Part shown: positions 52,464-59,315 of the stretch, one piece after another | Layout: each line of letters begins with the position of its first letter | How positions within the stretch are numbered: position 1 is the first letter of the stretch | Program-made: the position numbers and the translations under genes | Source of the DNA: Robiginitomaculum sp. | GTDB lineage: Bacteria; Pseudomonadota; Alphaproteobacteria; Caulobacterales; Maricaulaceae | Assembly (NCBI GenBank): GCA_002733605.1 | Contig: NVWK01000012.1 | Location: 80,506 to 144,505 of the forward strand | Direction of reading: 5' to 3' | Length of the DNA: 64,000 bases | Notes under the pieces: generated by a model | The model's input: the letters and a program-made list of their open reading frames with translations, nothing else | Told to the model about the DNA's origin: nothing | The model's database searches: none

Positions 52464-53669
52464 CTAGCCTTTTCTTCGCGCTTGCACAGCGGCAACAATT
52501 TTTTGGGCAGCGTCATCAAGATCGTCAGCGGCAAGCACGTCTACATCGCTATCATTGATAATTTTCTTGCCGGCTTCGACATTTGTACCTTCAAGGCGCA
52601 CAACAAGGGGAACCGTAAGACCAACCTCGCCGACAGCCGTAACAATGCCCTGTGCAATCACATCGCATTTCATGATGCCGCCAAAGATATTGACCAATAT
52701 GCCTTGGACATTGTCATCGGAGGTAATGATTTTAAAGGCCTGAATAATGTTCTCTGTCGTGGCCCCGCCCCCGACATCGAGGAAGTTGGCAGGCTCTTCA
52801 CCGTAAAGCTTGATGATATCCATAGTGGACATAGCCAAGCCAGCCCCGTTGACCATACAGCCGATTGTGCCGTCCAGAGCAATATAGGACAGGCCGTATT
52901 TGTCGGCTTCGACTTCTTTTGCGTCCGCTTCGGTTTCGTCGCGCAAGGCCTGAATATCAGGATGGCGGAACAGAGCATTGTCGTCAAAGCTGATTTTTGC
53001 GTCCAGACAATGCAGGTTTTGGTCTTCGGTCACGATCAACGGATTGATCTCGAGCATGGACATGTCTTTGGCCAAAAAGCCTTCATATAATATTTTACCA
53101 ATCTTGGCAGCTTGCTTGGCTAAATCACCAGAGAGCTTAAACGCGGCTGCAAGTGTGCGGCCATGATGGGGCATAAAGCCTGTCGCCGGATCAACATCAA
53201 AGGTGATGATTTTTTCAGGTGTGTCGCGGGCAACCCCTTCGATATCCATACCGCCCTCTGTCGAGGCCACGAAGGAAACGCGCGAGGTTTGACGGTCTAC
53301 CAAGAGAGACAGATAGAACTCTTTATCAATATCGGAACCAAATTCAATATACAGACGATTGACCTGTTTACCGACCGGGCCGGTTTGGTGGGTCACGAGT
53401 GTATTGCCGAGCATTTCTTTGGCGTTTTGCACCACTTCTTCAACGGACCAAGACAAACGCACGCCGCCTTTATCGCCAGCCGCGTCTTCTTTAAATGTGC
53501 CCTTGCCGCGACCACCTGCGTGGATTTGTGATTTGACCACCCAAAGCGGGCCGCCTAATTCTTTTGCAGCCGCCTCGGCTTCGCTCGCGTCGAAAATCGC
53601 GATGCCTTTGGAAACAGGTACGCCGAGTGATTTTAGGACTGCCTTGCCCTGATATTCGTGAATGTCCAT
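52464..53669 (-). CDS. sucC: Succinyl-CoA ligase (ADP-forming) subunit beta
   Basis: [22 protein letters not shown]...[16 protein letters not shown]...[16 protein letters not shown]. Confidence 0.97.
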
Positions 53670-53800: not shown

Positions 53801-53837
53801 GAAATGTGAATTGACCCGCGCGAAATGTGAATTGACC
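53801..53837 (+). repeat. Direct repeat GAAATGTGAATTGACC x2, 21-bp period (candidate LytTR site)
   Basis: 53801-53816 and 53822-53837 identical 16-mers upstream of the 53889 gene. Confidence 0.75.
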
Positions 53838-53888
53838 AACGTGACATGAGCTTGCACGTTTCGTTTTGTCATTACCAAGGGGTATATT

Positions 53889-54680
53889 ATGAACAAGACT
53901 TTGATTTTATCGTGTGTGTTGGCCATGGGCGTATCCGCATGTGGCACACAGGTTTCGCAGGCTAAAGAAAACGCGCCTGCAAAACATGCCACAGAAATGG
54001 AACAGACCACGCAGACAATTTTTAAAGCGTCTGACGGGGAAAGTGTATATTCTGATTTTTATGCCTCAGCCCAAGGCAAAGAGGCGCCCCTTATTCTTTT
54101 ATTTCACCAAGCCGGTGCAAATGGACGCGGCGAGTATGCGAACATCACTCCGAAACTCGTCGCACAAGGGTATAATGTTTTACAAGTTGACCAACGCAGT
54201 GGCGGCGGAAGCTTTGGCAGTCAAAACCGAACAGTGAAAGCCCGTGGCAAGTCTACGATATATTGCCCGGCCTATGCCGATATGGAAGGCGCGTTGCATT
54301 ACGCGACGGAAAACGGATATACGAAAATATTCGCGTGGGGCTCGTCCTACAGCGCCGCATTGAGCTTGAAATTGGCGGGGGAGCACGGCGATAGCCTTGC
54401 AGGGGCGCTTGCCTTTTCACCTGCATCGGGAAAAGGCATGGGCGCGTGTGCGGCCAATCAATTCATATCCGCGATCAAGATACCCACCCTTGGCCTGCGG
54501 CCCTCTTCTGAAATGCGTCCACCGGGGCAAGCTCAACGCGAATTATTTATCCAGCAGGGGCTGGAATATTTTGTATCCGAAGACGGGGTGCACGGCTCTT
54601 CCATGCTTGACCCGTCCCGGGCAAAAGGCGATGTGAAACCCACATGGGACAAGGTGTTAGCTTTTTTGAGCGCCCACTAG
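53889..54680 (+). CDS. Alpha/beta hydrolase (dienelactone hydrolase-like) lipoprotein
   Basis: Lipobox VSAC; LILLFHQAGANGRGEYANI...FAWGSSYSAALSLKLAGEHG...DGVHGSSML. Confidence 0.8.
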   Translation: MNKTLILSCVLAMGVSACGTQVSQAKENAPAKHATEMEQTTQTIFKASDGESVYSDFYASAQGKEAPLILLFHQAGANGRGEYANITPKLVAQGYNVLQVDQRSGGGSFGSQNRTVKARGKSTIYCPAYADMEGALHYATENGYTKIFAWGSSYSAALSLKLAGEHGDSLAGALAFSPASGKGMGACAANQFISAIKIPTLGLRPSSEMRPPGQAQRELFIQQGLEYFVSEDGVHGSSMLDPSRAKGDVKPTWDKVLAFLSAH

Positions 54681-54727
54681 CCCCCAAAGAGCACAATGTG
54701 CAAGGCGCGCAATTGGAGCGAGGTTCA

Positions 54728-56269
54728 TTACGCCGTTCCTTTCCATGCCCCATGAAAACCAAGTGGCAACGCATAGGGTAGTTCTAATATACAAACCGGC
54801 CCGTCTTCAATATGGGCTGCATCTATAATGTTTAGTTGCGTGCGCTGTGTTTCCAAATTCAGGGTCGTTCCGATCAACCAACCCTCATCTTCCCGCGATG
54901 ATCCCGGGCGCGCAAGGAACAGATGTTCCTCTACGACCGTCGCCTGACCGTAATTATGTCCGGTAATTTTACCGCTGACAAAATCATGTTTTAAAATCGA
55001 GGATTGCCCGGGAGCGTCTTCAAAGCTGTCTCCGACAGTATAAAGATAGCGCGCATTTTCCCCCATAACATTGCTGTTAAACTGCGGAAATTCATGAGCA
55101 GCCCGCTCTTTACTAACCTTCTCGACCCGTGCTTTCCCATTTTTATACAAGACCACATGCGCCAAATACGTTGGCGTTGGTTCGAACTTTTCGCCGCGCA
55201 TAACGGCGGTCGCGCCTTTGGTGATAAAACTATCATCACCCGCACACACACTAAAGCGAATATCTCCAACATTGTCTTCCCAAGCATTGCCGTAATGAAA
55301 CTGGAAACCCGGCGGTAATTCGTATTCACGTCGGGCGTCAAGATTATCTTTCTCCACCACAATCACCCGCTGGCCTTCTTGTGGCAGCCATTTAAATTTG
55401 CCGAGGAATGTATCCGATTGCTGTACGGCCTGAAAGGACGGTACGACAAAGATAAGGTGTTTTTTTGTGATGCAAAAATCGTGAATCATACCCGGCGCCA
55501 CATTTTTAAGCAGGTGCACACCCGCCAACTCCCCATTGGCATGAATTTTGTAAACCAGAAGACGGTTATGAAAAACATCCTGCCCAAAATTCCAGACCGT
55601 ACCGTCTGTGTCCACTTTCGGGTGGGCCGAGAACGGCATGCCTTTCAGCCCCTTGCCCCATGTTTTAGCCCCAAGGGTTTCTAAGGTCATATCGTCCAAA
55701 CGGTAGGCGGAACCACCCTCCCAGAGGGCGAGCAGTTCACCACCGATGGGCAAGATGCTGGTATTGGCGGCATTGAAATCATCAGGCCCGCTGACCGGCG
55801 CAGGATTGTCAATTTTTGTCCCGAACGCCGATGCCAGAAAGCGACCCGCCTTTTCTTCGCGCACATATTTATCAGTGCGCACCATACGTCCCGTATGGGA
55901 CACACCGTCCGCATTGATATGATAAGCGTGCACCATGCCGTCGCCGTCGAACCAATGGTGCAGGCGCAGCCCGTCTCTCTCGAACAAGGCCGGCCCATTG
56001 CGGTAGAACGTACCGGACAAACCGGTTGGTATTTTACCAGACACCACACGCAGTTTCGCTGTCGACATATCACTGGCAGGCACACTGCGCCAACCCAGTG
56101 TCCACGGATTTTTGCGGGAAGATTGTGCAAAGCTTTCAAAATCGCTCAGAGCAGTGTTCGCCGTACTGCTTTTTGCGAACGCGCCAATACTTGCACCAAT
56201 CCCTGCTCCGAGGCTGGCGCCCGCGCCCAATATGTGTAGTGCTGATCTACGTGTGAAATCCAGTGTCAT
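54728..56269 (-). CDS. Carotenoid oxygenase (RPE65/CCD) family protein, Tat-type signal
   Basis: TRRSALHILGAGAS; GLSGTFYRNGPALFERDGLRLHHWFDGDGMVHAYHI...; metal-ligand region FHGAWKG at C-terminus. Confidence 0.92.
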   Translation of the reverse strand: MTLDFTRRSALHILGAGASLGAGIGASIGAFAKSSTANTALSDFESFAQSSRKNPWTLGWRSVPASDMSTAKLRVVSGKIPTGLSGTFYRNGPALFERDGLRLHHWFDGDGMVHAYHINADGVSHTGRMVRTDKYVREEKAGRFLASAFGTKIDNPAPVSGPDDFNAANTSILPIGGELLALWEGGSAYRLDDMTLETLGAKTWGKGLKGMPFSAHPKVDTDGTVWNFGQDVFHNRLLVYKIHANGELAGVHLLKNVAPGMIHDFCITKKHLIFVVPSFQAVQQSDTFLGKFKWLPQEGQRVIVVEKDNLDARREYELPPGFQFHYGNAWEDNVGDIRFSVCAGDDSFITKGATAVMRGEKFEPTPTYLAHVVLYKNGKARVEKVSKERAAHEFPQFNSNVMGENARYLYTVGDSFEDAPGQSSILKHDFVSGKITGHNYGQATVVEEHLFLARPGSSREDEGWLIGTTLNLETQRTQLNIIDAAHIEDGPVCILELPYALPLGFHGAWKGTA

Positions 56270-56278
56270 CGCTGCCTC

Positions 56279-56773
56279 CTAGTTTAAACGAATGGCTTGA
56301 ACGGTGGCTGTGCCAGTCGCAGTCACTGTAAACTTAGCCTTCACCCATTTTGCCGGGCCCATATTGCCGGTCGCATTATTGGAAAATGCATATGGCTCTG
56401 TCGGCATGCCGAACAAATTCGTGTTCATTTCACCGTCGCCATTCACGTCGTGGAACAATTTGATGGCGTACTCACCTTCAGGCAGATGTTCGAAACTAAA
56501 GCTTACAGTGTCCGCTGTCACATTCGTGGTAGAGGCCCGCACACCTTTATTGGTTTTATACCCAGTTTCGCTGTCGAATAACGCCGCCATAATCGCGCCT
56601 TTCGCGTTCTTGACGCCACGAATGTCCACTGTGATTTCTGCGGTGCCATTTGTAGGCGTGGCTGATGTAGGCGTAGCGGGGACGTCTGCGGCATGGGCGC
56701 ATGACGCTGTGCCCGTTGCAAAGATGGCTGCGAGGGCGATTGTGTTCAATGTTTTGTTCATGGGGAACTCCAT
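56279..56773 (-). CDS. DUF2141 domain-containing exported protein
   Basis: AEITVDIRGVKNAKGAIMAALFDSETGY...FSFEHLPEGEYAIKLFHDVNGDGEMNTNLFGMPTEPYAFSNNA; start may be 56761 (MNKTLNTIALAA). Confidence 0.88.
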   Translation of the reverse strand: MEFPMNKTLNTIALAAIFATGTASCAHAADVPATPTSATPTNGTAEITVDIRGVKNAKGAIMAALFDSETGYKTNKGVRASTTNVTADTVSFSFEHLPEGEYAIKLFHDVNGDGEMNTNLFGMPTEPYAFSNNATGNMGPAKWVKAKFTVTATGTATVQAIRLN

Positions 56774-56848
56774 AATTTAGGTTTTGAAAAGCGTTGTGCC
56801 TTTCGATGAGTGGACTATGAACGAGAAAATTTCGGGCGAAAGCAGGGA

Positions 56849-56911
56849 TGCGTGAAGACGGGGTTTGACTACGTGAACGGCAAGGGGTTGCCCTTCGCGA
56901 TACGTGAACGC
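56849..56911. promoter_or_regulatory. Three helically phased CGTGAA direct repeats (candidate LytTR sites) in divergent intergenic region
   Basis: TGCGTGAAGA (56849), TACGTGAACG (56870), TACGTGAACG (56901); spacing 21 and 31 bp. Confidence 0.6.
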
Positions 56912-56997
56912 CACAGTTTTTCCCTTGCGCAGCGCGAAATTATTGGCATTGTTATTCACGAAGCGCCAAAACAATCAGCGCCCAAATAATCAACAAT

Positions 56998-57726
56998 GTG
57001 GGGAATATGAAAAACCAGATCAAAGCTTTAAAGCCAATGGTCGTGACATGCCTCATCGCAGGCATAATCCTAAGCGTACTTGCACCTTACGGCACCCACA
57101 CCCTTAACCCGGTGATCCGGTTTGTTTATTGGGTAGGTCTATCCTTGGCTGGCGGTTTTGGCGCAGGGATTATAGATGTTATTTTGCACTGGCGTGGATG
57201 GACTATAAAACCATGGCAACACGCGGTTGGACAATCCATCACAAGCACAATTGCCGTCGCGAGCATACTTCTGATGATGAGCTATAGTACATTTGGCCCG
57301 CCGAGCCTGAAAAGCTTTCTCAGCACACTGTTTTACATATGGGTTGTCGCGGCTACAATCTCATTGATTGGCATGCTCATACGCAAGCAAAAGCTCGCGA
57401 CGACAAACGTTGAAAACAATGCCCGCCCGGCACTCTATGAACGCTTGGCGCCCAAACTTCGCAGTGCAGACATCTATGCGCTCTGTGCAGAGGATCATTA
57501 TGTGCGGGTGGTTACGAGCAGAGGAGAAGAACTTGTTCTGATGCGTCTCTCCGATGCCATCAAAGAAACACTGCCGCTGAAAGGCCTCACGCCGCATCGT
57601 TCCTGGTGGGTGGCAGAGGCTGGCGTTGACACAGTGAAAAAAGCAGGACTGATGCTACATTCGGGACAATCTGTACCGATTAGCCGCACCGGTATGAAGC
57701 ATGTCCGCGCAGCAGGATGGGTCTAG
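56998..57726 (+). CDS. LytTR DNA-binding domain protein with N-terminal four-TM region
   Basis: TM segments then YERLAPKLRSADIYALCAEDHYVRVVTSRGEELVLMRLSDAIKETLPLKGLTPHRSWWVAEAGVDTVKKAGLMLHSGQSVPISRTGMKHVRAAGW. Start may be 57007. Confidence 0.9.
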   Translation: MGNMKNQIKALKPMVVTCLIAGIILSVLAPYGTHTLNPVIRFVYWVGLSLAGGFGAGIIDVILHWRGWTIKPWQHAVGQSITSTIAVASILLMMSYSTFGPPSLKSFLSTLFYIWVVAATISLIGMLIRKQKLATTNVENNARPALYERLAPKLRSADIYALCAEDHYVRVVTSRGEELVLMRLSDAIKETLPLKGLTPHRSWWVAEAGVDTVKKAGLMLHSGQSVPISRTGMKHVRAAGWV

Positions 57727-58247
57727 GTGTTCGGATTATCCTGCCCGTAAATATAGAACTCCCCGTCAAAAACACCGCCTACATTATTGACCTTTTTCAA
57801 GCGTTTTGAGCCAAGTCGCTCGGCAACCACCATACTACCCGTATTACTGACATCTATATTATGGATCACACGTTGCCAGCCCAACACATTAAACGCATAG
57901 TCGATTGAGGCACGCCCGGCCTCGGTTGCGTAGCCCTTACCCCAGGATTTGCGGTTCAGCCCCCAACCCACTTCACGGTCTTCCCAACCTTCAGGATACC
58001 ACGGCCCGACACGACCAATAAAATCACCGCTTGATTTTTCTTCTACAGCAAACATGCCGTAGCCACGAATTTGCCAATGGCCGATCATCGTCGCCATCCC
58101 CCGCCATGCGTGGGCACGGCTCAGCGGCTTGCCACCCATATATTTCATGGTTTGCGCGTCGGCCATCATCTCGGCCCAGCCTTCAAAGTCTTCTTCGGCA
58201 TTCAGAGGGCGCAGGATAAGGCGTTCGGTTTCGATTAATATGGTCAT
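57723..58247 (-). CDS. GNAT family N-acetyltransferase
   Basis: MTILIETERLILRPLNAEEDFEGWAEMMADAQTMKYMGGKPLSRAHAW...VGWGLNRKSWGKGYATEAGRASIDYAF. Confidence 0.9.
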   Translation of the reverse strand: MTILIETERLILRPLNAEEDFEGWAEMMADAQTMKYMGGKPLSRAHAWRGMATMIGHWQIRGYGMFAVEEKSSGDFIGRVGPWYPEGWEDREVGWGLNRKSWGKGYATEAGRASIDYAFNVLGWQRVIHNIDVSNTGSMVVAERLGSKRLKKVNNVGGVFDGEFYIYGQDNPNT

Positions 58248-58261
58248 AGCAATCTCCAGAC

Positions 58262-58285
58262 AAAAAAGGCGGGCCGAGGCCCGCC
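58262..58285 (-). terminator. Rho-independent terminator downstream of mdh
   Basis: Minus strand: GGCGGGCCTCGGCCCGCCTTTTTT. Confidence 0.85.
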
Positions 58286-58307
58286 AAATTCCTGATTTTA
58301 TCAAATC

Positions 58308-59315
<1,008 letters not shown>

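Follow-up and report, generated by a model that had tools for sequence, protein, structure and literature searches.

Membrane-bound regulators carrying a LytTR DNA-binding domain are common in alphaproteobacteria, yet for few of them have the DNA targets or the regulated genes been established. In the LytTR Regulatory Systems the operator repeats are 9 bp long, are separated by 12-bp spacers and lie 4-11 bp before the -35 box (PMC6193735), and AgrA promoters have non-optimal spacers of 18 and 20 bp (PMC4227749). For a membrane LytTR regulator a single ChIP study was found, that of HigX (PMC13384398), which gave a motif different from the one described below. The locus compared here with these systems lies in a window of 64,000 nucleotides, the whole stretch of DNA analysed (C7:80506-144505), within a 3.07 Mb alphaproteobacterial genome; the named relatives closest to it belong to Robiginitomaculum, Hellea and Hyphomonadaceae bins.

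The regulator gene, lytTR (57007-57726, + strand; start chosen because the ribosome-binding sequence GGGGAATATG is kept in the genus), encodes a protein of 239 amino acids. Its match to PF04397 (38.6 bits against a cut-off of 22.6) places it among LytTR-domain proteins, and Foldseek paired it with the LytTR domains of ComE and AgrA at probability 1.00. The AlphaFold2 model (pLDDT 94) has helices at residues 2-25, 35-63, 69-95 and 101-138 followed by the LytTR fold, so that the four membrane helices plus DNA-binding domain proposed in the first-pass annotation are supported by a confident model. A sequence-profile search for a solved structure gave none at E <= 0.01, and fold relatives of the membrane domain in the PDB were confined to weak helical matches.

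Divergent from lytTR lies a gene of the DUF2141 family (56279-56761, - strand; PF09912, 116.3 bits; start at 56761 or 56773), whose product is likely exported, as it carries an N-terminal signal-like sequence. A carotenoid oxygenase gene of the RPE65 family (54728-56269, - strand; PF03055, 361 bits) begins 9 bp after DUF2141 and, by its proximity, probably shares an operon with it. The DUF2141-oxygenase order is kept in five other loci (L067-L070 and L073), as judged by ORF size and position and, for L067 and L073, by inspection of the sequence. Next after lytTR, in the opposite orientation, comes an ORF judged by eye to be acetyltransferase-like. The regulator module seems to be embedded in a TCA gene cluster, with sucC on one side (52464-53669) and the acetyltransferase and malate dehydrogenase on the other (57723-59291); this placement recurs in several other genera (L072, L074-L076, L086, L089-L091), as seen mainly from ORF sizes.

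Between the two divergent genes the word CGTGAA occurs on the + strand at 56851, 56872 and 56903, with intervals of 21 and 31 bp, exactly where the first-pass annotation had put it. Element 1 (TGCGTGAAG, 56849-56857) adjoins the -35 box of the putative DUF2141 promoter (56814-56843, - strand), which consists of GCTTTC at 56838-56843, an 18-bp spacer and CATAGT at 56814-56819; read along the DUF2141 strand, the order is thus element 1 (CTTCACGCA), 5 nt, and the predicted boxes GCTTTC-N18-CATAGT. On that strand GCCGTTCAC agrees by eye with seven of the nine positions of [TA][AC][CA]GTTN[AG][TG], the LytTR consensus as the first-pass annotation quoted it. Element 2 (TACGTGAAC, 56870-56878, + strand) follows at the 21-bp interval that is found in many homologous loci. 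Element 3 (56894-56909, + strand, with TACGTGAAC at 56901-56909) lies 31 bp from element 2 and forms the right half of a dyad, TTCGCG-ATA-CGTGAA (56894-56908). Repeats of about 9 bp with a period of two helical turns close to a -35 box define a LytTR direct-repeat operator, and here elements 1 and 2 have a period of 21 bp, as in homologues, and the distance to the predicted -35 is 5 nt. On the other side lies a putative lytTR promoter, TTGCGC-N17-ATTGTT (56925-56953, + strand), proposed from the sequence, and near the presumed lytTR transcription start there is an additional inverted element, TTCACGAAGCG (56955-56965, - strand), with a single-site score of 14.5, among the best in the window; CGTGAA is similarly placed in L068-L070. 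Both promoter regions have counterparts elsewhere: CATAGT is present also in L067 and L071, GCTTTY or CGATTGAG stands at the same offset in many other loci, and CTTGC...GGCATTGTCAT is largely conserved in the lytTR promoter region of the genus homologues.

To score the window triple, a weight matrix built from 63 loci, all outside the genus, was applied to every window position on both strands. At the spacing (21,31) the triple ranks first with 32.0 bits, against 2.4 for the runner-up position. Taken singly, element 2 ranks 9 in the 64 kb and element 1 is weak (rank 81).

Of 119 genomes from the family, 84 contain a homologue of the LytTR protein, and homologues were also located at 80 named loci; the element consensus upstream of them is roughly T-[TG]-C-G-Y-G-A-A-Y. 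The best-fitting triple has exactly the spacing (21,31) in 16 of 40 upstream regions of relatives, compared with none of 200 shuffles, and in 27 of the 80 named loci, including those of Caulobacter, Maricaulis, Phenylobacterium and Robiginitomaculum, again with none among the shuffles; the 40-region and 80-locus sets overlap in part. In 99 dereplicated upstream regions, CGYSAA pairs occur at a distance of 31 bp in 41 (expected 0.05), at 21 bp in 22 (expected 0.12) and at 52 bp in 18 (expected 0.04), where the expectations come from resampled sequences and flanking control regions gave 0-1. These spacings are thus enriched several hundred-fold upstream of the homologous genes, and the further favoured distances of 30, 41 and 62 bp are likewise near whole helical turns. 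At 60 of the 99 loci the third element is paired with an inverted arm lying 9 bp before CGYSAA, and so forms the right-hand side of a dyad, TTCRCG-N3-CGYGAA. Because the elements were found through consensus scoring, their logo is partly built in, whereas neither the inverted arm on the left of the dyad nor the AAAGCG box that precedes element 1, both visible in the logo, entered into locus selection, so that their conservation is independent. Many homologous loci deviate from (21,31), some having (21,41) or (21,30) and others no clear triple.

The bare pattern CGYSAA-N15-CGYSAA-N25-CGYSAA, searched blindly in 398 genomes of the order, had 71 matches in 64 genomes, compared with 8 for the reversed control. 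A relative of the window LytTR protein lies within 1.5 kb in 17 of the 30 matches retrieved, and 12 further matches in the family, that of the window included, sit at known LytTR homologues; among the remainder some chance hits in coding sequence are expected. Within the window genome itself, pairs at one mismatch are not enriched (71 versus 74 in the control), nor are CGTGAAY...CGYGAAY pairs (7 versus 9). On these pattern counts a large regulon in this genome was rejected, the two extra matches inspected (L108, L172) being coding sequence.

The gene divergent from the regulator is nearly always of the DUF2306 or the DUF2141 family: in the 76 loci scanned there were 45 matches to the former and 24 to the latter, counts that could overlap in a few proteins. 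It is these families that are the regulator's constant partners, and the carotenoid oxygenase is linked to it in few loci only. The suggestion in the first-pass annotation that a carotenoid-derived signal acts on the regulator is therefore not supported. DUF2141 itself may be tied to carotenoids, because it adjoins crtG in Sphingomonadales (PMC5989583) and the oxygenase in the window. Several exceptional arrangements were also seen. At one phased locus, a member of alignment A2, the divergent gene encodes an ABA4-like protein (PF14108), another possible carotenoid link; at L095 (G105) a hydrolase resembling serine beta-lactamases takes the place of the divergent partner, with an AraC-type regulator next in line; and a second DUF2141 gene of the window genome (G000:C11:72432-72734, L296) has an LptF/LptG-like permease ORF as its neighbour, and no adjoining LytTR gene was seen.

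The phasing in helical turns, kept across Caulobacterales, makes it very probable that the triple is the switch by which the regulator governs both its own gene and the divergent one. The CGTGAA triple, its third element within a dyad, is read as the operator of the adjacent four-helix LytTR protein, which would activate DUF2141 and regulate its own gene; a probability of about 0.8 is assigned to this reading, made from sequence comparison. The protein would be anchored in the inner membrane and would bind elements 1 and 2, two helical turns apart, just upstream of a weak -35 (GCTTTC, 18-bp spacer), thereby activating the promoter of DUF2141 and the carotenoid oxygenase. The dyad at element 3 would let the protein control its own promoter, a role that the additional inverted element by the presumed lytTR transcription start may share in this genus. 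The conservation, the exact phasing, the association with this clade of regulators and with a divergent DUF2306 or DUF2141 gene, and the position relative to the predicted promoters are observed; we infer the ligand, the sign of regulation, the autoregulation and a membrane or envelope signal that would drive the protein.

The sign of regulation is the point on which the closest rival reading differs. The operator might be bound by the LytTR protein acting as a repressor, in the manner of CoxC, with a membrane signal lifting repression of DUF2141 and lytTR. CoxC, a transmembrane LytTR protein, represses through three direct repeats that overlap the -35 (PMC11347149), and at Maricaulis-type loci the start codon of lytTR follows element 3 after about 20 bp. 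The elements on the DUF2141 side are nevertheless upstream of the -35 and not over it, and a poor -35 with an 18-bp spacer is what activated promoters have. Since element 1 next to such a -35 is in the usual activator place of LytTR proteins, at the usual type of promoter (PMC6193735, PMC4227749), activation of DUF2141 appears by analogy the more likely, and repression is considered unlikely, while being the strongest of the competing readings. A different protein could instead occupy the sites and control both genes, for instance a dimer recognizing TTCACG-N3-CGTGAA as a dyad, or a LytTR paralogue from the same genome (HigX-like, C6:40761). The dyad is strong, and the paralogue's own promoter carries CGCGAA twice, 21 bp apart, so that paralogue and window protein may have their specificity in common. 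A direct repeat of 21 bp, however, is a hallmark of LytTR proteins, and the matches of the blind scan cluster at homologues of the window lytTR. The window genome has six LytTR genes, whereas in five genomes of the genus (G011, G027, G057, G067, G077) a Pfam search gave the window-type lytTR as the single LytTR gene; provided that the operator is indeed a site for LytTR, its ligand in those genomes is this protein. The adjacent LytTR protein is thus the likely ligand of the triple, and control by another protein is improbable. Cross-talk with the paralogue is possible. A LexA-type GTTC-N7-GTTC site was considered by eye and rejected on its spacing. That the triple is a chance or low-complexity repeat without function is scarcely credible: CGTGAA is a common word and the one-mismatch pairs are unenriched in the genome, yet the spacing is conserved across genera where counts near 0.1 are expected and the flanking controls are clean.

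The first-pass annotation went further and joined to one LytTR regulon, under an envelope or carotenoid signal, the DUF2141-oxygenase operon, lytTR itself and an alpha/beta hydrolase lipoprotein gene (53889-54680, + strand; PF12146, 30.4 bits). Upstream of the latter two copies of GAAATGTGAATTGACC were correctly located (53801-53816 and 53822-53837, + strand; 53801-53837 in all), identical at 16 of 16 positions with a period of 21 bp. This 16-mer has no other occurrence in the 3.07 Mb genome at two or fewer mismatches, a uniqueness for which one tandem duplication suffices. In favour of a common regulon, the window element contains YGTGAAY twice, 21 bp apart; an exact YGYGAAY-N14-YGYGAAY occurs at two places in the genome, here and within a gene; and in G057 hydrolase and regulator share a neighbourhood. 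Orthologues of the hydrolase are present in 4 of 14 genus genomes, and in all four loci AAAYGTGAATTGAC or a near form stands about 60-80 bp before the start; it is double only in the window, and single in G057 and G047 (as TGTGAA) and in G093 (as CGTGAA). TTGAC in all four promoters fits a -35, with CACGTT, CATATT, CATGTT or CATGAT as -10 17 bp on; in the window the likely -35 is TTGACC of the second copy (53832-53837), with CACGTT (53855-53860) as the -10, and in the three other orthologues the single element overlaps the -35 TTGAC. The operator's near-invariant C, found in 99% of the training sites, is replaced by T in three of the four hydrolase elements, and as a pair the repeat scores 6.8 versus 20.0 and ranks 18. 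The hallmarks of the operator, CGYSAA with its conserved C in phased copies kept in orthologues, are therefore not those of the hydrolase promoter, and the repeat was rejected as a LytTR site. The element is moreover kept in G047, nearly complete, and in G093, 82% complete, both without a regulator homologue (an absence that weighs less in G093 on account of its completeness), and five genus genomes have the regulator without the hydrolase. With the oxygenase linkage confined to few loci as well, a single regulon of this extent is very doubtful. The hydrolase repeat is most simply read as a promoter region duplicated in tandem, possibly including the site of another factor. Of the proposed control of both neighbours one half is supported: the triple, by its order-wide conservation and 21-bp period, is a phased operator, most probably that of LytTR. 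The hydrolase half is not supported, given its single-copy orthologues and low pair score.

A more general picture is put forward tentatively. Throughout the order there may be a regulatory module in which a regulator with membrane part and LytTR domain fused in one protein stands divergent from a gene of the DUF2306 or DUF2141 family and has a composite operator of fixed layout, with two direct sites and one dyad (21 + 31 bp). From the membrane, LytTR domains would then contact half-sites of both orientations, direct and inverted, along a single face of the helix. Two families of unknown function are thereby tied to one regulator clade, and the candidate operator, which is precise and testable, is shared by Caulobacter, a model genus (L184, L190, L202). 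A literature search found LytTR and DUF2141 mentioned jointly in none of the papers and LytTR with DUF2306 in one, on separate rows of a table, and a direct-plus-inverted layout of half-sites was not found described for LytTR proteins in the literature compared.

Among the known systems, HigX of Caulobacter crescentus (CCNA_03131; PMC13384398) resembles the window protein in having four transmembrane helices and a LytTR domain with no periplasmic domain, in being widespread in alphaproteobacteria and in having a conserved neighbour gene. That neighbour is a COG4188 hydrolase, whereas the window clade adjoins DUF2306 or DUF2141, and ChIP of HigX gave as motif ATGTTASC-GSTACCAT, an inverted repeat of imperfect symmetry, in place of CGYGAA direct repeats, a difference that weighs against the proposed operator. 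HigX also falls outside the window clade in a tree whose deep forks are poorly supported. Orthology with HigX was rejected because the gene context differs, DUF2141 being the divergent gene, and because a separate HigX-like paralogue is present in the genome (G000; C6:40761-41447; L103, L034), divergent from a dienelactone-hydrolase-like gene as in the HigX context, with the COG4188 assignment made by eye. AgrA at its P2 and P3 promoters likewise uses pairs of direct repeats in a divergent intergenic region, and differs in being a two-component response regulator, with no third element at 31 bp described in the portion of the source available (PMC4227749). CoxC of Afipia carboxidovorans, an MHYT-LytTR protein, is membrane-anchored and has three direct repeats two helical turns apart, as here; it is a seven-helix MHYT sensor of CO and a repressor (PMC11347149), its repeats (TTNNNGCN, 18-21 bp) cover the -35, and the passages compared mention no 31-bp step or dyad. 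The LytTR Regulatory Systems HdrRM and BrsRM (PMC6193735) share with the proposed module membrane-tied LytTR regulation and autoregulation. They consist of a soluble regulator and a membrane inhibitor co-transcribed from one operon, whereas in the window the membrane and DNA-binding parts are joined in one protein, with its putative target divergent from it.
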